A program made the position numbers and the translations under genes. From Flavobacterium sp. HSC-61S13 (GTDB lineage: Bacteria; Bacteroidota; Bacteroidia; Flavobacteriales; Flavobacteriaceae): 64,000 nt of DNA. The notes beneath the pieces are model-generated. The model was not told where the DNA came from. It saw only the letters and a list, made by a program, of their open reading frames with translations, and made no database searches. The stretch covers positions 310,001 to 374,000 of the forward strand of contig NZ_JALJZV010000001.1 of NCBI RefSeq assembly GCF_024171535.1. The letters are read 5' to 3'. Positions 11,535 to 49,307 of the stretch are shown piece by piece (position 1 is the stretch's first letter; each line of letters opens with the position of its first letter).

Positions 11535-12281
11535 CTAAACATCCCAAGTCAATTGACAAATAAAATGCGTGATTCCTTCACTGCTGATGGTGTAAGTATC
11601 GCAATGAGTTTGTTCGCTAGCTAAATTAACTTCATAAGGCATACCGTATACCATTTCTCTTTTAAAAATCATTTCTATAGTGGAGAACTCGTGTTTCATG
11701 ATTTTTTCAAACGGTACTGTATCTAAAATCCATTCCACGTACTTGGTGTTGTTAACGTGATTAACCATATCCAGATCGGAGTAGAGCACGGTATTCTCGC
11801 GCACCTTATCAAAGGCTAGATCGGTTGGGATTTTGCTAAAATCGCCTTTAAGGGCTTTTTTGGAATTAAAGATGTCAAAATGGTCGTGTGGGATACTCAT
11901 GACATCGGGCCTGCGCTTTACGGTATTGATGATTACCCAAAGCGTACTGATTCCCATGATTTTTTCGCCGTTTAAGAAAATCTCAAAATTTCTTATCGAG
12001 CGCGAGCCTTCTAGGCTTTGAATCCAAGTGTGAATTTCGATGATGTCTTGCCATTGCGGAAGTCGATCAATTTCAACCTTCATTTTGTTTAATACCCAGG
12101 CCAAGTTGTTTTGTTGTAAATCTTCAAAACTAATACCTCCTAAGATGGAGTGGGTGTTGGCTACTTTTTGTAGAATTTGTCCAATAGCAGCTGTCTTTAG
12201 TTTTCCGCTGGGTGCGCATTCTAAAAAGTCCACTTCGTGGGTTTGTGTATAAAGAGAAGTAAAGTTGGGTGATATAGGCAT
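11535..12281 (-). CDS. Acyl-ACP thioesterase (FatA/FatB-type double hot-dog)
   Basis: This 248-residue protein is built of two hot-dog halves. The first contains AAIGQILQKVANTHS and a WIQSLEGSRSIRNFEIF stretch. The second contains the conserved DLDMVNHVNNTKYVEWILD, with the Asn/His residues used for catalysis in the family. It hydrolyses acyl-ACP to free fatty acid and ACP. Bacteroidetes usually carry one such gene. miaA lies 16 bp upstream on the same strand, so it is probably read as part of the channel-miaA-thioesterase run. Confidence 0.88.
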   Translation of the reverse strand: MPISPNFTSLYTQTHEVDFLECAPSGKLKTAAIGQILQKVANTHSILGGISFEDLQQNNLAWVLNKMKVEIDRLPQWQDIIEIHTWIQSLEGSRSIRNFEIFLNGEKIMGISTLWVIINTVKRRPDVMSIPHDHFDIFNSKKALKGDFSKIPTDLAFDKVRENTVLYSDLDMVNHVNNTKYVEWILDTVPFEKIMKHEFSTIEMIFKREMVYGMPYEVNLASEQTHCDTYTISSEGITHFICQLTWDV

Positions 12282-12297
12282 TAAATACGTATTTTAA

Positions 12298-13215
12298 TTA
12301 GGGTGCTGTTTGATGGTGTATTTTTTGTATAATATCTTTTAAAGGGGTATGAATATCAAACCAGTTTACTGCATCGAGTTTTTTAAACCAGGTTAATTGT
12401 CTTTTGGCAAATCGTCGGGTATTTTTTTGTATTTCTGCTTGCGCAAACTCCAAACTGATCTCGTCGTTGAAAAAGGAGAATAATTCACGATATCCAACGG
12501 TTTGTAAGGCATTCAGGCTTTGATGTGGATAGAGCTGTCTGGCTTCGTCCACTAAACCTTGTTCCATCATTAACTCCACGCGCTGGTTGATTCGCGAATA
12601 CAATTCTTGGCGATCTGCTTCGAGTCCGATAATTATAGGGGTAAAGTTACGCGTATTTTCCTTTTGTTTTAAAAAAGAAGAATAGGGTTGTCCACTGCCA
12701 ATACAGACCTCTAAAGCGCGGATTAGGCGTTGTGGGTTTTGCAAAGCGACCTTTTTATAATGTATAGGATCTAATTCCAGTAGGAGTGTTTGTAGGGATT
12801 CTAGTCCCTGCTCTTCGAGTTGCTGGTTTAGTTTTTCGCGTATTTCGGGATTGATTTCGGGAAATTCGTCCAAACCATTCAACACGGCATTGACAAACAA
12901 ACCCGAACCTCCAACCATAACTTGAATCGGATTTTGGGTAAATAACTGATCCAATTTAAGCAAGGCATCGCGTTCAAAGTCGCCAACTGAATAGGGATTG
13001 AATATGCTTTTGTCCTGAATAAAATGATGGGGCGCTGCGGCCAATTCTTCTAAAGAGGGTACAGCGGTTCCTATGGTCATCTCTTGATAAAACTGTCGAC
13101 TATCGCAGGAGATGATTTCGCAGTTGAAATGTTTGGCGATTGCGATGGCCAAGGCCGTCTTTCCAATTGCGGTCGGACCAACTACGGTGATTAAATAATT
13201 ATTATTTGTAGACAT
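12298..13215 (-). CDS. miaA: tRNA dimethylallyltransferase
   Basis: This 305-residue P-loop prenyltransferase has GPTAIGKTALAIA at about residues 13-25, CDSRQFYQEMTIGTA, HHFIQD and VGGSGLFVNAV, the standard MiaA motifs. It adds a dimethylallyl group to A37 of tRNAs reading UNN codons. Its start overlaps the 3' end of the upstream potassium-channel gene by 14 bp (13202-13215), implying translational coupling. Confidence 0.96.
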   Translation of the reverse strand: MSTNNNYLITVVGPTAIGKTALAIAIAKHFNCEIISCDSRQFYQEMTIGTAVPSLEELAAAPHHFIQDKSIFNPYSVGDFERDALLKLDQLFTQNPIQVMVGGSGLFVNAVLNGLDEFPEINPEIREKLNQQLEEQGLESLQTLLLELDPIHYKKVALQNPQRLIRALEVCIGSGQPYSSFLKQKENTRNFTPIIIGLEADRQELYSRINQRVELMMEQGLVDEARQLYPHQSLNALQTVGYRELFSFFNDEISLEFAQAEIQKNTRRFAKRQLTWFKKLDAVNWFDIHTPLKDIIQKIHHQTAP

Positions 13216-42524: not shown

Positions 42525-43178
42525 ATGGATGTAAACGATTTAATACTAGAGTTTCAACCTATTGTTTCTTTAACCTTAGTTAGGCAGCAAAATTTTGTAA
42601 AGAAAATAGGAGCAACGATGCGTGAAGAGAGTAAGATGCGTTTTAGTAAGGAGAAACCGCGTGGTTTTGGTCATTTTTTGGAAATGTCTCCCGAGATATC
42701 GGTATATGTTTTAGATGTAGAAACCGATGAGACTATTCGGCTAATAAGTGTACCTTCTCAGCAAGAATTTTGGGTTATTAACTATCAGATTCAATGTGAT
42801 ATCACCGAGCAGGATATAAGCCAGGTGAACGCAGATCATTTTGAACATGTCTTTACGATAATCGATAGTCAGCATAAGGGTAATTTGATATGTGAAAAAG
42901 GATTGAGAATGTTTTCATTGCGATTGTTCGTTAGTAAACCTTATTTTGAAAACCCAGATTTGAGAATTGATTTAAAAAAGATATTTCGAGAGGATCATTT
43001 CTACAGAGGAGTTATGGATGATAAAAGCCTATCTATAGTAAAGGAACTGATGCAAAGAAGTTATAATCAATTCAATTTTGATGCGGTATTCAAGCCGGTG
43101 GTATATAATTTAGTTGCTTTATTGGTGGAGCGTTTAACGAGTGCTGATCTTGATGATTTTGTTGTTTCTGGTAATTAA
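42525..43178 (+). CDS. Unknown protein resembling an AraC-type sensory domain without helix-turn-helix
   Basis: This 217-residue soluble protein has no signal peptide or membrane helix. The N-terminal part (MSPEISVYVLDVETDETIRL, REDHFYRGVMDDKSLSIVKELMQRS) has a feel of the cupin-like plus linker region found before the DNA-binding domain in some Bacteroidetes AraC regulators, yet the frame ends where the helix-turn-helix should begin. There is no such domain in the 60 bp downstream in any frame that I could see. It converges with the polyketide operon. I do not recognise the family with certainty. Confidence 0.6.
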   Translation: MDVNDLILEFQPIVSLTLVRQQNFVKKIGATMREESKMRFSKEKPRGFGHFLEMSPEISVYVLDVETDETIRLISVPSQQEFWVINYQIQCDITEQDISQVNADHFEHVFTIIDSQHKGNLICEKGLRMFSLRLFVSKPYFENPDLRIDLKKIFREDHFYRGVMDDKSLSIVKELMQRSYNQFNFDAVFKPVVYNLVALLVERLTSADLDDFVVSGN

Positions 43179-43239: not shown

Positions 43240-43761
43240 TTATATCGAAATAGTATAGTGAGGTGTCAGAGCAACTGTTTTTTTATAGCGGCCGTGATGA
43301 CTAATGGAAACGGCTTGCCGATCAAGTTGATTCGCATTGATCCGGTAGGGAATACCGTATTTATCTTTTAAAATGACTTGATTTTCGATTTCGCTTACTC
43401 GGTTAAAATCACTGATTGCTGTGACTGCAACACTGTGTATACACGAATCGGATAGTGTGGTTTGGGTATAATAGACCGTGCCTTCACAGTACACTTTTCC
43501 ACAAGCCATTTCGCTGTTATGTAAATGTAGACTACATATTAGTTTTATGGGTATATACTGTCTTATTTTGGTTTGTCTGTGATGTATCTTATAAGCAGCT
43601 TCCTTCATACTCCACAGTAACCACAAGGTGATTTCTGAGTCTTTACTAGTTGCAATTAGCTGTTGTTCGTGTAGGGTAAAAAGCTTTTCGCGTAAACCTT
43701 TGCGTTGCCAGTTGCTTTCCACACGACTCTGTCTGATATCGATTACATCATTGCCAATCAT
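43240..43761 (-). CDS. 4'-phosphopantetheinyl transferase superfamily protein
   Basis: This 173-residue protein has the two family signatures: MIGNDVIDI at the N-terminus (Mg-binding Asp) and LLWSMKEAAYKIHHRQ (W-x-x-KE-x-x-x-K) at about residues 47-62. It transfers phosphopantetheine from CoA to a carrier-protein serine, most likely the ACP encoded immediately upstream (4-bp overlap). The short AcpS-like length is that of stand-alone, cluster-linked enzymes. It is the last gene of the seven-gene operon. Confidence 0.88.
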   Translation of the reverse strand: MIGNDVIDIRQSRVESNWQRKGLREKLFTLHEQQLIATSKDSEITLWLLWSMKEAAYKIHHRQTKIRQYIPIKLICSLHLHNSEMACGKVYCEGTVYYTQTTLSDSCIHSVAVTAISDFNRVSEIENQVILKDKYGIPYRINANQLDRQAVSISHHGRYKKTVALTPHYTISI

Positions 43762-44012
43762 TTGGTTTCTAATTTAGTTTGAATGATTTCGACTGCGGTT
43801 TGTACGTCAAGCATACGCTCCATAGATTCATTATCGATGATGATGTCAAAGGCACTTTCAATATCTAATACGATATCGACTAGATTTGCCGAATTAATTT
43901 GTAAATCCTTGATAAAATCGGTTTTCTCTGTAAGGTTCTGATGTGCTTCGGACTGTTCGGTATAGGGTTTAACGATCACTTTTAGCTGTGCAATGAGTTC
44001 TTCTTTTGTCAT
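43758..44012 (-). CDS. Acyl carrier protein
   Basis: This 84-residue acidic helical protein has the ACP landmarks: DFIKDLQINSANLVDIVLDIE, with the attachment Ser at residue 41. The usual D-S-L triplet is N-S-A here, then a normal helix II/III (FDIIIDNESMERMLDVQTAVEIIQ). It carries the growing acyl chain on a phosphopantetheine arm. It sits between the ketosynthase (25 bp upstream) and the phosphopantetheinyl transferase (4-bp overlap), so it is the dedicated carrier of this cluster and not the housekeeping AcpP. Confidence 0.9.
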   Translation of the reverse strand: MTKEELIAQLKVIVKPYTEQSEAHQNLTEKTDFIKDLQINSANLVDIVLDIESAFDIIIDNESMERMLDVQTAVEIIQTKLETK

Positions 44013-44037
44013 GAGTACTTTTTTAGATTGTATTGTT

Positions 44038-45315
44038 TTATTTTACTTCGTCGTATTTTTTAAAAATAAGACACGCATTTACATCGCCAAAGCCAAAACT
44101 TGCTTTGGCTATGATATTCAAATTGATATTGGTCGTCTGTAAAGGTATTTTAGACGGATGAATAAGCGAGGCTATTTCCGGATTCAAATCAGTGCAATTG
44201 GTATTTCCAAATAAAAAACCGTGATGAATCTGCAACACTGTTGCTACGCTTTCGATACTACCGGCGGCACTAAGGCAGTGACCTGTCATACTTTTTAAGG
44301 AATTGATATATGGAAAATCATCATGATGACGATTCAATGCCTTGGTCCAGTTTTCGATTTCCAAACTATCTTTGGACGTTGCAGTGAGATGGCCATTGAT
44401 CGCGTCAACCGCTGAAGCTTCTATACCCGAATTTTTCAGGGCATCCGTTATACAGCGTTGAACTGCGATGCTGTTAGGTGCGGTCATACTGCCTGTTCCG
44501 CGTTGTCCACCAGAATTTACTTGTCCGCCCAATATTTCGGCATAGATTGTAGCACCGCGTTGTAGCGCGCTTTGGAGTTCTTCAATAACCAAGGCACCAG
44601 CGCCACTGCCGGGTACAAATCCCGAGGCTGTTGCGCTCATTGGACGAGAGCCTTGTTCTGGATCGTCGTTAGATTTTGAATTGCACACACGTAGCGCATC
44701 AAAGCCAGCCCAAATATAAGGACCGCTATCTGAAGTACTACCAGCCAATATGCGCTTGGCTTTGCCAGATCGGATGCGGTCATACGCCATTAGTATAGCC
44801 TCTGTTCCCGTAGCGCAGGCCGATGAATTCGTCGTTACTTGATTGCCAAGTCCGAGTTTTCCGCCCAGATAAGCACTTATACCGCTATTCATCGTTTGAG
44901 CCACAACGGTGCTGCCTAATCTACGGGTTTGTAAATCGTCTATTTTATAAATGCTTTCTCGAAATTTATCAATACCCGAAGTACCCGCTCCAAAAATTGT
45001 ACCGCTGTCATAGTCGGGTTCTTCGGTGACTTCGCCGTGTAGTCCCGCATTTTCCCAAGCTTCTATACCTGCTATCACCCCATATAAGATGCCCGTGCTG
45101 TTGAAAGCCCGAAGTTCAAGCTCGGTAAAATACTGCGATTTTAGGTCAGCTGTAATTTGAGGTTGACCGGCTATTTGACAAGAAAATTGCAATTGTTGTA
45201 ATTGTTCCTGATGGCGGATACCCGAAAGTCCCTTTTTGAGGGCCTGAGTAAAGTCCTTAATTCCAATCCCATTTGGGGCGACTACCCCCAAACCCGTGAC
45301 AACTACGCGATTCAT
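44038..45315 (-). CDS. Beta-ketoacyl-ACP synthase (FabF/KS-II type)
   Basis: This 425-residue ketosynthase keeps the Cys-His-His triad: TNSSACATGTEA (Cys), INGHLTATSKD (first His, in the usual NAHGT position but reading NGHLT) and SLKSMTGHCLSAAGSIESV (second His). The N-terminal RVVVTGLGVVAPNGIG is typical. It condenses malonyl-ACP with an acyl starter. The overlap with the upstream dehydratase is 4 bp. No chain-length factor or acyltransferase is nearby, so FabD/FabG from primary metabolism would be needed. It probably extends the acyl chain used by the type III synthase. Confidence 0.92.
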   Translation of the reverse strand: MNRVVVTGLGVVAPNGIGIKDFTQALKKGLSGIRHQEQLQQLQFSCQIAGQPQITADLKSQYFTELELRAFNSTGILYGVIAGIEAWENAGLHGEVTEEPDYDSGTIFGAGTSGIDKFRESIYKIDDLQTRRLGSTVVAQTMNSGISAYLGGKLGLGNQVTTNSSACATGTEAILMAYDRIRSGKAKRILAGSTSDSGPYIWAGFDALRVCNSKSNDDPEQGSRPMSATASGFVPGSGAGALVIEELQSALQRGATIYAEILGGQVNSGGQRGTGSMTAPNSIAVQRCITDALKNSGIEASAVDAINGHLTATSKDSLEIENWTKALNRHHDDFPYINSLKSMTGHCLSAAGSIESVATVLQIHHGFLFGNTNCTDLNPEIASLIHPSKIPLQTTNINLNIIAKASFGFGDVNACLIFKKYDEVK

Positions 45316-45749
45316 AGCCTAGCAGTAATCATACCGGACAATATGCCTTTGCAGACTTCCTGCCCAGCTTCATTTTTCATAACTACAGTACACTTGAGTT
45401 TTCCAAATCGAAAAAATGTCTTTTCAGAGCTCACCGTTACTTTTTCGTTGGGGTATACCGGTTTTAAAAACTGCACATCTGCAGATGTAAATGCGATCAC
45501 CGTATCCTTTTTTAAGTCGTTATTTAGTAAGTAGATACCCAAACAAACCATACCAATTTGCGCCATGGTTTCCGTTAATATCACTCCTGGAGTAACCGGA
45601 TTACCATTAAAATGGCCGCGGTAAAAGTCGAGGTTTTCATCATAGGTATAGGTACCTATGGTACCGTTTTCATCGGCATGTAGCAATTCATCTACAAATA
45701 AAAATGGTTTGCTATAAGGTAGTTGTGCAATAATATCGTTTAAGTTCAT
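45312..45749 (-). CDS. FabZ/FabA-like hot-dog 3-hydroxyacyl-ACP dehydratase
   Basis: From ATG 45749 (145 residues, MNLNDIIAQLPYSKPFLFVDEL); an ATG at 45773 would add eight residues and overlap the type III synthase gene by 7 bp. The FabZ active-site region is FYRGHFNGNPVTPGVILTETMAQIG: His of HFxG and Glu of the long helix are both present. It should remove water from 3-hydroxyacyl-ACP made by the cluster ketosynthase and a reductase from elsewhere. It overlaps the ketosynthase by 4 bp. Confidence 0.85.
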   Translation of the reverse strand: MNLNDIIAQLPYSKPFLFVDELLHADENGTIGTYTYDENLDFYRGHFNGNPVTPGVILTETMAQIGMVCLGIYLLNNDLKKDTVIAFTSADVQFLKPVYPNEKVTVSSEKTFFRFGKLKCTVVMKNEAGQEVCKGILSGMITARL

Positions 45750-45766
45750 CGTTTTTTTTTTAGTGA

Positions 45767-46819
45767 TTACCATTGTAATAAAACCCGTTGTGCAGAGAAT
45801 CCAGGACCGAAGCTCAGCATCAATCCCTTTTCTCCAGGTTTGGGTTTGTTCTCCATAATTTGCTCCAATACATAAAGTACCGTAGCGCTAGACATATTGC
45901 CGTAGTTCATTAGGACTGCTTTCGTATGGTCGATATTTTTGCCCAAACCAGAGAATAACTCCTCAACAGTAGCTACGATTTTTTTGCCGCCGGGGTGAAA
46001 TATCATATGGTCTATATCTTTGATTTCCAGTCCATTTTTCTGTAGGAAAGGATGGATGATCGCATCAAAATGGGATGCTATGGTGTTGGGGACCTCAATA
46101 TCCAAGACCATCTGTAAACCGCTGTTGGTCAATTTAAAACCCATCATCTGTTCGGCATCATAAAAGTGATACATTTGCTCGTCGATAATTGCAGGTCCGT
46201 TGTCTTCCTGATTTGATGACAACAAGCAACAGGCTGCACCATCACCAAAGATAGCGGCACTGACTATATTGGGCATCGAAAAATCATCGAGCTGAAAGGT
46301 TGCAGTAGGGGCTTCTACGGCAATGACTGCAGCGCGTTTGCCCGGATTGGCCTTAAGAAAGTTTTTGGCATATAAAACACCCGATACTCCCGCGGCACAA
46401 CCCATCTCAGTAACGGGCAATCGAACGATGTCCTGACGCAGTTTCATTTTGTTGATCAGATAAGCGTCTAGTGACGGAATCATGATGCCCGTACAACTCA
46501 CGGCAATAATAAAGTCCAGGGATTGCGGGTCCCAAGCCGCTTTGTCAAGCGCTTTTCTCAGGACTTGTTCTCCTAAAATTATCGCTTCACGACAATAAAT
46601 ATTGTTTTTATCTTCAAAAGAGGTTGCTGTAAAAACTTCAACAGGATCCATGATCGAGTAGCGTCTATGTACGGCGGCACCCTCAAATATCTTTTTTACT
46701 TTTTTTATAAAGCGTTCGTCTTGTCCCTGTAACCAAGTATCCAGTAAAGGAAGTATCTCTGCTGTGCTGCGGGAATATGGTGGTAGTTGCTTGGCAACCG
46801 TAACTATTTTTACTTTCAT
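45767..46819 (-). CDS. Type III polyketide synthase (chalcone/stilbene synthase family)
   Basis: This 350-residue type III synthase has the complete Cys-His-Asn triad: Cys141 in VTEMGCAAGVSG, His275 in MIFHPGGKKIV and Asn308 in LMNYGNMSSATVL. GPGFSAQ near the C-terminus is the conserved CHS loop. Such enzymes load an acyl-CoA or acyl-ACP starter, extend it with malonyl-CoA without a carrier protein, and cyclise to pyrones, resorcinols or phloroglucinol. A bacterial flavobacterial member (Zobellia) is known to make phloroglucinol. With methyltransferase and FAD enzyme genes directly upstream (4-bp overlap) and fatty-acid-like genes downstream, an alkyl-pyrone or alkylresorcinol-type product is likely. 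Confidence 0.93.
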   Translation of the reverse strand: MKVKIVTVAKQLPPYSRSTAEILPLLDTWLQGQDERFIKKVKKIFEGAAVHRRYSIMDPVEVFTATSFEDKNNIYCREAIILGEQVLRKALDKAAWDPQSLDFIIAVSCTGIMIPSLDAYLINKMKLRQDIVRLPVTEMGCAAGVSGVLYAKNFLKANPGKRAAVIAVEAPTATFQLDDFSMPNIVSAAIFGDGAACCLLSSNQEDNGPAIIDEQMYHFYDAEQMMGFKLTNSGLQMVLDIEVPNTIASHFDAIIHPFLQKNGLEIKDIDHMIFHPGGKKIVATVEELFSGLGKNIDHTKAVLMNYGNMSSATVLYVLEQIMENKPKPGEKGLMLSFGPGFSAQRVLLQW

Positions 46820-47529
46820 ATCTTAAAGATTAACCATTGGTAACGAAAAGCCCATTTCCACTTAATGTTGTATTTTTTTAACTGTGCTATTTCGGAGAAA
46901 TTTTGCAATTCCCGTTTTTTAAACCCCCTTAATATAGAGGTCAGTCCATCTTCTCTCGACATGCGGTTTAAGCTAATAACAACAGCTATGATGGCAAATA
47001 GCCTATAGGCCAGTTTACTGCGTTGTAGATCATTGATTACAATACCCATACGGGCATTGGTCTTAAATATAGTGATTAAATCGATTACTTGCTCGTTGGT
47101 AAAATGATGTAAAGTCAATGTACACAAGACGATATCGTAAGTTGTTTTTTGAAATTCATCGCTAAAGATATCCATACAACGGTAGTCAATGTTGGGATAA
47201 TCTGCGGATAATTTTTGTGCATATTGGATTGTAAAAGCATTGGCATCTAGGCCGGTTAGTTTTAGACTTAAATGATTTTTGTAGCCATAATCGGCGAGCA
47301 TCCGCAACATATCGCCATTACCACAACCGATGTCGGTAATGTGAATGACTTCATGAGCAGTTGCTTGTTTGAGTAGTTGTTTAATACCGTCAAGAGTGAG
47401 TTTATTACCACCTAAGAGTTGATTGATTCTCGCAATTTTATCCAAAGCCTCGACTAGTTCTTCGCCTTCAAGCGAAAAATCGTCCATGATTTCGGTTTTT
47501 TCGGTTCGGTCTTTAGTGTTGATGCTCAT
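46816..47529 (-). CDS. SAM-dependent methyltransferase (class I)
   Basis: This 237-residue class I methyltransferase has motif I ITDIGCGNGDMLRMLADYG near residue 73, an acidic end of strand 2 (LTGLDANAFTI), CMDIF, and motif IV VLCTLTLHHFTNEQV. A hydrophobic helix (LFAIIAVVISLN) in the C-terminal half may touch membrane or a lipid substrate. Overlaps of 4 bp at both ends tie it to the FAD enzyme and the type III synthase, so it most likely methylates their aromatic or pyrone product. The acceptor atom is unknown. Confidence 0.88.
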   Translation of the reverse strand: MSINTKDRTEKTEIMDDFSLEGEELVEALDKIARINQLLGGNKLTLDGIKQLLKQATAHEVIHITDIGCGNGDMLRMLADYGYKNHLSLKLTGLDANAFTIQYAQKLSADYPNIDYRCMDIFSDEFQKTTYDIVLCTLTLHHFTNEQVIDLITIFKTNARMGIVINDLQRSKLAYRLFAIIAVVISLNRMSREDGLTSILRGFKKRELQNFSEIAQLKKYNIKWKWAFRYQWLIFKI

Positions 47530-48653
47530 GAACTGGATACGGGTTTACCGTGGGTTTGTTTGATGATCCAAGGCAATATGGATGGGATGGATACAGCTGC
47601 GTATAGTACGATTGCCGTAATGGTTTCGTACTGTAAAGTCGTAGCTAATAACCTGCCGATAAATAAACGTTTGGCGAAATGGTTTTTCCAATATTGGGTA
47701 TATTTTTTTTCTAAATCGATGCGGGATCTTGTTTTACTTGTATAGTATTCCACGACGAGTTCTGAAGCGATTTTAGCACTGTGAATGGCCATAGCCATCC
47801 CGTTGCCACAAAGCGGGTGAATTAGTCCGGCGGTATCGCCAATCATCAGTATATGGTTTTCTATGGTGGATTTTTGATCAAAGGAAATTTGACCTATCGT
47901 CAGTGGTTTCTCAAAAAGAAGGCTACTGTTTTCAAAAACTTTCTTTAAGTATTTGTTTTTATAGAGTACTTCTTGTTGATAATCAGCAATGTTTTTATAC
48001 TTCTTAAACGTTTTATAATCGGCGAGATAACAGATGTTGATGCTGTTGTTTTCGACTTTAGATATACCGCAATAACCGCCTTTAAAGTTGTGTAAACCCA
48101 CCATATCGTTGGGGAAATCGCCAGAATAATGCGCTTTTACCGCTAGCCATGTTGAGGGCTTGCGCATAAAATCGCGGGTTAAAACCTGATCGATATTAGA
48201 GCGTTTGCCATAGGCACCTAATAGTATATTGGCTGTTAATGTTTGCTTGTTGGTCGTAACTTGAAATACATCATCGATAAAGGCGATGTCGGTAACGGTT
48301 TCCATTAGTATAGTACAGCTGTTTTTTACGGCTTTTTGGTATAGAAAGTCGTCCAATGTATAACGACTGATTCCAAAACCTCCTAGTGGTAGTGTTGTAG
48401 TAACGATCTTTCCACGACGGTTACTGAATTGCAGTTTTGTAATCTGCGTTGGATTCAATTGAAATACATCAACATCTAAGTCTTGGAGGTAGTTTAAAAT
48501 TTCATTCGAAACATATTCGCCGCAAACCTTATGACGCGGATAAGCGGTTTTTTCGATCAAAGTCACGGCTAATCCCGCTTTGGATAAATGTATAGCGGCT
48601 ACCAAACCGGCAAGTCCTCCACCAACAATAACTACCTCGGGATTTGTTTTCAT
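47526..48653 (-). CDS. FAD-dependent oxidoreductase (geranylgeranyl-reductase/hydroxylase-like)
   Basis: This 375-residue flavoprotein has the N-terminal dinucleotide-binding VVIVGGGLAGLVAAIHLSKAG, ending with an acidic ribose-binding ELVEKT-like LIEKT. RHKVCGEYVS is the group-specific motif, and ILMIGDTAGLIHPLCGNGMAMAIHSAKIA is the second FAD-binding motif. The C-terminal tail includes a hydrophobic stretch (AIVLYAAVSIPSILPWII), perhaps membrane-associated. Related enzymes hydroxylate aromatics or reduce prenyl chains. Hydroxylation of the cluster product is the simplest proposal. First gene of the seven-gene operon, starting 72 bp after the YdeI gene on the same strand. Confidence 0.88.
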   Translation of the reverse strand: MKTNPEVVIVGGGLAGLVAAIHLSKAGLAVTLIEKTAYPRHKVCGEYVSNEILNYLQDLDVDVFQLNPTQITKLQFSNRRGKIVTTTLPLGGFGISRYTLDDFLYQKAVKNSCTILMETVTDIAFIDDVFQVTTNKQTLTANILLGAYGKRSNIDQVLTRDFMRKPSTWLAVKAHYSGDFPNDMVGLHNFKGGYCGISKVENNSINICYLADYKTFKKYKNIADYQQEVLYKNKYLKKVFENSSLLFEKPLTIGQISFDQKSTIENHILMIGDTAGLIHPLCGNGMAMAIHSAKIASELVVEYYTSKTRSRIDLEKKYTQYWKNHFAKRLFIGRLLATTLQYETITAIVLYAAVSIPSILPWIIKQTHGKPVSSS

Positions 48654-48725: not shown

Positions 48726-49307
48726 TTACTGTAAGTGTTTTGGTTTTTGTTTGAGTTCGGCACAACGGACTATTTCGTCGATGCGTTTTTGCCTTGTTTC
48801 GGCTCTTTTGGCGAGTATAAGCCATTGTAATATGGCTTTTTTTACGGATTTACTCAAGCTTTCAAAATATTCCTTGGCTGTTGATTTGTTGATAAAGGCC
48901 GTTTCTAGGTCTGTTGGAACAATGAGTTCTTCTACTTCATCGAGTATCGTCCACGAACCGTTTTGTTTGGCGATGTCAATACTTTCGTATCCCTTTGCAG
49001 TCATCTGACCTGAAGCGATCAATTGTTCGATTTTCTTTTTGTTGATTTTTGACCAGGTGCTTTGTGCTTTTCGTTTGCTGAAAAACTGTTGAGAGGATTC
49101 CGCATCGATCTTGATTTTTTTGCTGTCGATCCAACCAAAACACAACGCAACATCAACTGCCTCACTCCAGCTTATAGAATTTTTAGCAGAACTTTTATTA
49201 TAGAATACCAACCACACTGAAGCTTTGCTTAAGTGGTTTTTTTCTAACCATTCTCTCCATGCGATAAGCGTGGTCGGGTGAAATATTTCGCTTTCTGTTT
49301 TTTGCAT
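48726..49307 (-). CDS. YdeI/OmpD-associated family protein
   Basis: This 193-residue protein matches the YdeI family: TTLIAWREWLEKNHLSKASVWLVFYNKSS, VDVALCFGWIDSKKIKID, FSKRKAQSTWSKINKKKIEQLIASG and the basic tail LAKRAETRQKRIDEIV. The family is soluble, with no firm molecular function; E. coli YdeI is linked to stress and antimicrobial-peptide resistance phenotypes. It stands on the same strand as the polyketide operon, 72 bp before it, but its family gives no reason to count it as part of the pathway. Confidence 0.85.
   Translation of the reverse strand: MQKTESEIFHPTTLIAWREWLEKNHLSKASVWLVFYNKSSAKNSISWSEAVDVALCFGWIDSKKIKIDAESSQQFFSKRKAQSTWSKINKKKIEQLIASGQMTAKGYESIDIAKQNGSWTILDEVEELIVPTDLETAFINKSTAKEYFESLSKSVKKAILQWLILAKRAETRQKRIDEIVRCAELKQKPKHLQ

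Follow-up and report, generated by a model that had tools for sequence, protein, structure and literature searches.

A type III polyketide synthase operon with its own acyl-chain-building enzymes in Flavobacterium sp. HSC-61S13: a candidate phenolic-lipid pathway

Seven genes on the minus strand of a 64,000-nucleotide stretch of the Flavobacterium sp. HSC-61S13 genome (hereafter the window) form a compact operon at positions 43240-48653, in which a type III polyketide synthase (T3PKS) and two tailoring enzymes are joined to a small set of separate proteins of the fatty-acid type. We consider it somewhat probable, judging from the gene families, that this operon carries out the whole synthesis of a phenolic lipid, by building a dedicated acyl chain, closing a ring on it and converting the product into a methylated, oxidised alkyl-hydroquinone, alkylquinone or related phenol. 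In the proposed pathway, a 4'-phosphopantetheinyl transferase (PPTase) would arm a dedicated acyl carrier protein (ACP), on which a beta-ketoacyl-ACP synthase (KS) and a 3-hydroxyacyl-ACP dehydratase (DH) would extend the chain with the help of borrowed housekeeping enzymes, namely those for malonyl loading, a ketoreductase and, in this genus, an enoyl reductase. The T3PKS would be primed with this chain, probably by direct transfer from the ACP, and would then add malonyl units and close a ring, most likely a resorcinol; by analogy, the methyltransferase (MT) may then add a methyl group and the flavin adenine dinucleotide (FAD) enzyme oxidise the ring. Direct handover from carrier to T3PKS has a precedent, because the available text on ArsA of Azotobacter vinelandii describes a fatty acid synthase whose ACP gives the chain directly to ArsB and ArsC (PMC6274091).

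The first-pass annotation had proposed these seven genes in this order, and both the open reading frames (ORFs) and the Pfam families bear it out (Pfam matches were judged by gathering score, with Pfam and NCBIfam matches listed at E 0.001). The first gene encodes a FAD-dependent oxidoreductase of 375 amino acids (aa; 47526..48653, FAD_binding_3 over its gathering score), a probable ring monooxygenase, and it is followed by a PRK06202-like S-adenosylmethionine-dependent MT of 237 aa (46816..47529, Methyltransf_25 over its gathering score), probably a ring C- or O-methyltransferase. The 350 aa T3PKS (45767..46819) combines the Cys-His-Asn triad of its class (C141-H275-N308, with F228) with both chalcone/stilbene synthase domains, Chal_sti_synt_N and Chal_sti_synt_C, over the Pfam cut-off (PF02797 75.8 bits and PF00195 69.4 bits, each against 27). 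Behind it lie a FabZ-like DH of 153 aa (45312..45773, FabA over its gathering score, H54/E68), a FabF-like KS of 425 aa (44038..45315, ketoacyl-synt and Ketoacyl-synt_C over their gathering scores, C167-H309-K341-H346), the ACP of 84 aa (43758..44012, S41) and the PPTase of 173 aa (43240..43761, ACPS 43.4 bits against a cut-off of 25; W50, K53 and E54). The catalytic residues described earlier for the T3PKS, KS and DH are all present at the expected positions. Likewise, the coordinates agree with the close packing reported before: four junctions overlap by 4 bases (FAD/MT, MT/T3PKS, DH/KS and ACP/PPTase), the T3PKS/DH junction overlaps by 7 bases with the longer DH start (an alternative methionine is DH residue 9, at 45749), and a 25-base gap separates KS from ACP.

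None of the listed matches for the seven proteins reached a curated NCBIfam cut-off. The KS, for instance, scored 276.9 bits with the fabF model (cut-off 493.75), and the ACP matched NCBIfam ACP models, all below their cut-offs, and had no Pfam match at E 0.001. These scores suggest that the seven proteins are divergent members of their families, and the operon KS is 26-32% identical to five other KS matches in its own genome.

Conservation of the gene set was followed in 80 named loci, the best 80 of at least 557 relatives from a scan of species genomes; all belong to the Bacteroidota and, having been picked by likeness to the query, they may be more uniform than the remaining relatives. With the best match per gene, the order FAD-MT-T3PKS-DH-KS-ACP-PPTase, with or without a short-chain dehydrogenase/reductase (SDR) after the T3PKS and with the PPTase variable, is kept throughout, three loci being incomplete at contig ends. 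The plain seven-gene order occurs in 42 of these loci, the same order plus the SDR in 26, and in a further nine the SDR is present and the PPTase undetected. The T3PKS, MT and FAD genes are consecutive in 79 of 80, the remaining locus ending at a contig edge. Because this order is kept in so many relatives, the arrangement is more than chance. Two wider sets of loci of the window type were also used, 94 for counting an eighth gene and 119 for gene content; since two genomes contribute two loci each (L059/L204 and L089/L180), there is one repeat in the 94 and there are two in the 119. Wherever the contig reaches in the 119 loci, DH, KS and ACP genes come after the T3PKS, except in L090, where ACP and PPTase were undetected after the KS; the DH of L067, unlabelled in that listing, was detected in a separate scan of related loci. 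A few loci of this set have extra ORFs between the cluster genes. Absence of KS and ACP from conserved neighbourhoods was one part of what would have refuted the first-pass annotation; both are there, apart from the ACP of L090.

The functional residues are equally constant. The T3PKS triad is invariant in 23 aligned rows and its motifs, like F228 (MGF), occur in 80/80 named loci; the four KS residues are kept in 78/78 filled rows of 79, the DH pair in 81/81, the ACP serine in 79/79, the three PPTase residues in 70/70 and the GGY.G columns of the FAD protein in 80/80. The operon KS also has GFGD (D411) in 78/78 filled rows, a position which we take to be the gating loop of elongating KS enzymes; the KS proteins of two unrelated clusters discussed below, L158 and L256, have GFGG and AFGG. 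Across 77 loci, pairwise distances of the T3PKS correlate with those of FAD (r 0.81), MT (0.80), DH (0.81), KS (0.88) and ACP (0.61), compared with a maximum r of 0.25 in 500 permutations. The cluster parts have travelled together, and vertical descent alone could also give such a correlation. As to its distribution, a T3PKS match at E < 1e-100 was found in 19 of 36 genomes of the same genus, and one at E 1e-60 or better in 26 genomes of an even draw of 296 Bacteroidota (own genome included). Of these 26, 25 are of the window type; the odd one, G156, has a T3PKS of 36% identity partnered by an ICMT-like ORF instead.

Discrete chain-building genes also accompany a T3PKS in two clusters of different make-up. 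Plasmid pLA3 of Novosphingobium pentaromativorans (L256:76-5059) carries the gene series ACP-KS-T3PKS-FAD; close by, on the opposite strand, lies the gene of a PRK06202-like MT that matches NF004851 at 151.0 bits, short of the cut-off. The plasmid KS and the window KS share 26.5% identity. In the same phylum, genome G174 (L158:3895-12074) has AcpS, KS, a FabG-like SDR, a FabL-like SDR and two T3PKS-like genes, together with one ORF that has a DH match, one ACP-like ORF, a 249 aa ORF read as KS-like (it has no NCBIfam match) and an ABC-type ATPase recognised by reading; this appears to be a separate, fuller cluster of chain-builder and T3PKS. Because of these two further pairings, a chance adjacency in the window is unlikely. 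Together with the linkage in the 119 loci and the correlated distances, they support the original proposal that ACP/KS machinery is coupled to the T3PKS.

The trio of T3PKS, MT and FAD genes occurs elsewhere without any chain-builder. Other Bacteroidota carry distant T3PKS proteins, here called type B (that of L094 is 26-28% identical), with homologous MT and FAD genes. In 20 further type B loci, the two genes closest to the T3PKS on each side were inspected: MT and FAD are both there in 12, the MT alone in one and neither in seven (in L130 a FAD homologue lies farther away); their FAD proteins are 22-50% identical to the best-matching reference FAD. The neighbours of about seven type B loci that lack MT and FAD (GHMP kinase, Rce1-like, MazG, NurA, SWIM, SPFH and others) include no further pathway gene. 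A UbiA homologue is present in four of the 20 (L129, L135, L141 and L148) and in L094, where a UbiA prenyltransferase, T3PKS, MT and FAD stand in one row (L094:3030-6839, genome G016 of the same genus), a possible prenylated polyketide quinone cluster. In the Alphaproteobacteria, plasmids of Paracoccus and Falsirhodobacter have consecutive T3PKS, MT and FAD monooxygenase genes, whose MT is 28% and FAD 27-30% identical to those of the window. Since the trio stands alone in both of these groups, the chain-builder looks as if it had been added to a type of phenolic-lipid or polyketide-quinone cluster that is already known.

The same distribution lends something to a different reading, in which KS, DH and ACP make a separate acyl group, for example a ring ester, and the T3PKS uses an ordinary acyl-CoA or malonyl-CoA, since other lineages manage the trio without such a module. 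We regard this as improbable: the SDR is the only further gene that recurs inside the cluster, and the DH gene lies close behind the T3PKS or SDR gene, often by less than 30 bp.

The recurring SDR is itself informative. A FabL-like protein of about 265 aa is encoded directly after the T3PKS in 43 of the 94 window-type loci (37 of the 80 named ones). The two tested had FabL (NF005975) as their best NCBIfam model, at 140.6 and 151.4 bits against a cut-off of 328, and among solved structures the enoyl-ACP reductase 3oic, which we take to be FabL of B. subtilis, comes nearest in sequence. A Y-x6-K pair, as expected of FabL, occurs without exception (38/38 rows), with S or A where the ketoreductase pattern Y-x3-K would put its lysine. 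It had been noted that the operon lacks both ketoreductase and enoyl reductase, which holds for the window and fails for these relatives. Because so many of them encode a FabL-like enoyl reductase, the possibly unsaturated starter suggested with that observation is not our default reading.

The gene is present in Spirosoma, Chitinophaga, Dokdonia, Aequorivita and Winogradskyella, and absent from Siphonobacter, all sampled Pedobacter, Polaribacter irgensii and every Flavobacterium on the T3PKS tree except GT3R68 (L234). On this tree, a quick one with 44 of 108 inner branches drawn open, seven gains or losses are counted; early presence followed by repeated loss would be the simpler story, which is not proven. 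The absence of this reductase from the operon is a lineage feature. Relocation of the gene in Flavobacterium was considered and rejected, as the window's own genome has no match at E 1e-20 or better; in 37 genomes, all of the same genus, the search found only SDRs of 29-32% identity, in five of them. The own genome has 20 SDR matches, 19 of them over cut-off, and another ACP with a nearby KS at C9:19096-20769, and these could help the operon in trans. The only other SDR-like ORF labelled near a window-type cluster lies in L062, on the opposite strand.

Where the FabL-like gene is missing, one might ask whether the FAD enzyme takes its place, that is, whether it is a geranylgeranyl-type reductase that saturates the chain while the ring stays unoxidised. 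Its best NCBIfam match, the GG-red superfamily TIGR02032 (123.1 bits, short of the cut-off of 158.8), and the lack of a FabL-like gene in most Flavobacterium and in the Pedobacter loci speak for this. Yet the FAD gene also occurs in 36 of 37 loci that have the FabL-like gene, the remaining one being cut at a contig end, and in the trio clusters without a chain-builder; moreover W.FP, a motif of geranylgeranyl reductases, is not seen at GGYCGIS in the FAD protein. We hold this substitution to be rather unlikely.

Comparison of predicted structures with solved folds, ranked by Z, is in keeping with a phenol-acting enzyme and does not decide between hydroxylase, halogenase and reductase. The FAD model (pLDDT 86.9) is nearest to PltA, ChlB4, Mpy16, FasV and Bmp2 (Z 35.6-36.6), followed by the Cytophaga flavoprotein 3nix (34.7), squalene epoxidase (34.0) and 3-hydroxybenzoate 6-hydroxylase (33.0), with p-hydroxybenzoate hydroxylase at about 32; by fold, the enzyme would thus sit among phenol halogenases and hydroxylases. 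The MT model (pLDDT 92.5; best NCBIfam match NF004851, 136.9 bits against a cut-off of 243) has CouO (Z 21.7), BpumL (21.6) and NovO (21.0) as its nearest folds, with no clear winner among them. Since CouO bears the title of a C-methyltransferase and the substrate of BpumL is a peptide antibiotic, C-methylation of the ring is no more than plausible. The first-pass annotation had held that the modifying enzymes look unrelated to those of SrsABC; judged by its fold, the FAD enzyme is not plainly different in kind from a flavin hydroxylase such as SrsC, and the related pairs that accompany a T3PKS in the trio-only clusters described above show that the pair is not unique to this cluster. A plasmid of Hymenobacter swuensis (L254:2060-7074) has a FAD homologue (36.5% identical) too, there next to genes for a TauD/TfdA dioxygenase and an isonitrile synthase; no T3PKS is annotated within the 13 kb around it.

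Several observations weigh against the phenolic-lipid reading. None of the window-type clusters in the 119 loci shows a ketoreductase, the PPTase went undetected in 9 of the 77 uncut named loci, and two of the 80 have frame-broken genes (KS in L175; FAD, MT and KS in L233). The FAD protein carries GAYGKR in place of the GADG motif usual in flavin hydroxylases, the geranylgeranyl-reductase-like 3oz2 is also a close fold (Z 31.9), and the enzyme could, judging from its model, be a reductase or a halogenase instead; the MT folds, for their part, are tied between C- and other methyltransferases. The nearest solved structure to the T3PKS by sequence is Pks11 (E 2.7e-51), which carries an alpha-pyrone enzyme title, and at the place of F228 Pks11 has W. 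In Streptomyces, finally, the starter of the polyketide quinones is given in the available text as acetyl-CoA, not a built acyl chain (PMC9927152). The broken genes of L175 (Spirosoma telluris) and L233 (Lacinutrix neustonica) are either sequencing errors or signs of decaying clusters.

The likeness to Pks11 favours an alkylpyrone operon, in which the T3PKS would close a pyrone on the dedicated chain and the MT and FAD enzymes would modify either the pyrone or the chain. Against it, the FAD fold matches phenol-acting enzymes, and a T3PKS with a small ORF labelled ICMT-type by eye (no family search was made), lacking a FAD gene, forms a separate class in the same phylum, being found in 12 of 15 type C loci. 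Such T3PKS/ICMT-type pairs are typical of characterised alkylpyrone clusters, and they are also annotated on Stenotrophomonas, Rhizobium, Nitrobacter and Phyllobacterium plasmids. Weighing both sides, we consider a pyrone less probable than a phenol and, on the whole, unlikely.

Attempts to read the ring type from single residues were less helpful. We paired F228 with ArsB W281 through what we take to be the chalcone synthase numbering, and W stands at this place in all six aligned type B, type C and alphaproteobacterial T3PKS; the W281 rule was dropped, as it depends on that numbering and as Pks11, with its alpha-pyrone title, has W at the aligned place too. A closer-query search aimed at ArsC returned nothing at E 1e-60. 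Membership of the 3,5-dihydroxyphenylacetyl-CoA synthase family DpgA was rejected (NF042429, 180.8 bits against a cut-off of 425). Flexirubin and DarA-DarB clusters are alike in their Bacteroidota hosts, their aromatic lipid and the ACP and KS genes nearby; their ring is made by DarB, not by a T3PKS. A flexirubin resorcinol was rejected for the operon, since its T3PKS scores 19.7 bits with the DarB model (cut-off 550) and another locus of the genome, C9:100356-101480, does match DarB over cut-off.

Among the closest known clusters are pkqABC of Mycobacterium smegmatis and Streptomyces MNU77 and the phenolic-lipid operon srs of Streptomyces griseus (PMC8730385). Their T3PKS, MT and flavoenzyme functions all lie in one operon, as they do in the window, and the available text describes no dedicated ACP, KS, DH or PPTase for them, whereas the window operon has all four. 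The same trio of functions is common to hidABC of picocyanobacteria and to a planctomycetal operon (PMC10896814, PMC8086630), which differ, as far as the available text goes, in a mostly MT-oxidoreductase-T3PKS order and in CoA-activated fatty acid starters, with no acyl-chain module mentioned. According to excerpts of that work, the planctomycetal T3PKS expressed heterologously gave pentadecyl- and heptadecylresorcinols, its co-expression in Corynebacterium with the MT and oxidoreductase led to one methylation only, probably at a carbon atom, and the role of the oxidoreductase stayed unclear (PMC10896814). These likenesses are by function.

Two other systems hand a carrier-bound chain to a T3PKS. 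In ars, an ACP domain is part of ArsA, which a cited title names a type I synthase, and the available text mentions no MT/FAD pair (PMC6274091); the window operon contains such a pair and no type I multidomain synthase, its DH, KS and ACP being separate type II proteins. CylI of cyanobacterial cylindrocyclophane synthesis is handed a chain that starts out on a stand-alone carrier protein, but this chain is elongated by the type I PKS enzymes CylD and CylH, and no MT/FAD pair is mentioned in the text available (PMC8086630). The operon described here is set apart from the Srs, Pkq, Hid and planctomycetal operons by its own chain-builder of separate proteins.

In the open-licence literature searched, we found no product assigned to a window-type cluster. 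T3PKS clusters make up 10.74% of biosynthetic clusters in 2,680 genomes of Flavobacteriaceae and relatives (PMC10734526), and surveys of Flavobacteriaceae and Bacteroidetes tie, in the parts available, no product to this gene set (PMC10734526, PMC7440613, PMC9100364); a table row in one of them links the T3PKS of Spirosoma and Flavobacterium to hypocrellin and kanamycin synthesis (PMC9100364).

The surroundings of the cluster offer a few further hints. Of 164 T3PKS loci scanned, 13 have a YceI-family gene near the cluster, which in 12 adjoins it directly; ten of these have it on the upstream side and two, both Polaribacter, on the downstream side (for example L188:5453-6043, confirmed by Pfam, and L250 near 12122-12619). 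The family binds lipids such as polyprenyl compounds, and the adjacency may fit a greasy product. As pathway members, the upstream genes of marine relatives were set aside; besides YceI they appear to be neighbourhood genes, LepA-like and OmpA-like ones for instance, recognised by reading without a family search. In the window itself, a YdeI/OmdA-domain protein (48726-49307, same strand) lies upstream of the operon and is unmatched in 40 related loci scanned, and a 217 aa ORF past its end (42525-43178, plus strand) has no Pfam or NCBIfam match at E 0.001.

On a broader scale, it is conceivable, if still doubtful, that Bacteroidota have in common a lipid head with a redox or membrane role, the product of T3PKS, MT and FAD enzymes, and that its tail suppliers are interchangeable, UbiA in some trio clusters and a private type II chain-builder in the window type. 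We raise this because of the shared MT/FAD core, the UbiA genes in some trio loci and the near-exclusive single T3PKS per genome: the L094 T3PKS is matched (E 1e-22 or better) in 134 of the 296 Bacteroidota genomes, once only in 133 and twice in G205. A second T3PKS was found in none of 25 window-type genomes (own genome counted, the divergent G156 excluded); the naive probability of such mutual exclusion of types, 5e-6, ignores shared ancestry and is a hint only. If this were true, polyketide quinones would occur outside the Actinobacteria, as conditional electron carriers or membrane protectants, in a major phylum of soil and sea. A private starter bound to a carrier, if true, would give the Azotobacter ars system a counterpart made of discrete enzymes, of use in producing alkylphenols of choice; and should the product be a quinone, it would provide an alternative respiratory lipid that can be tested in a major environmental phylum.

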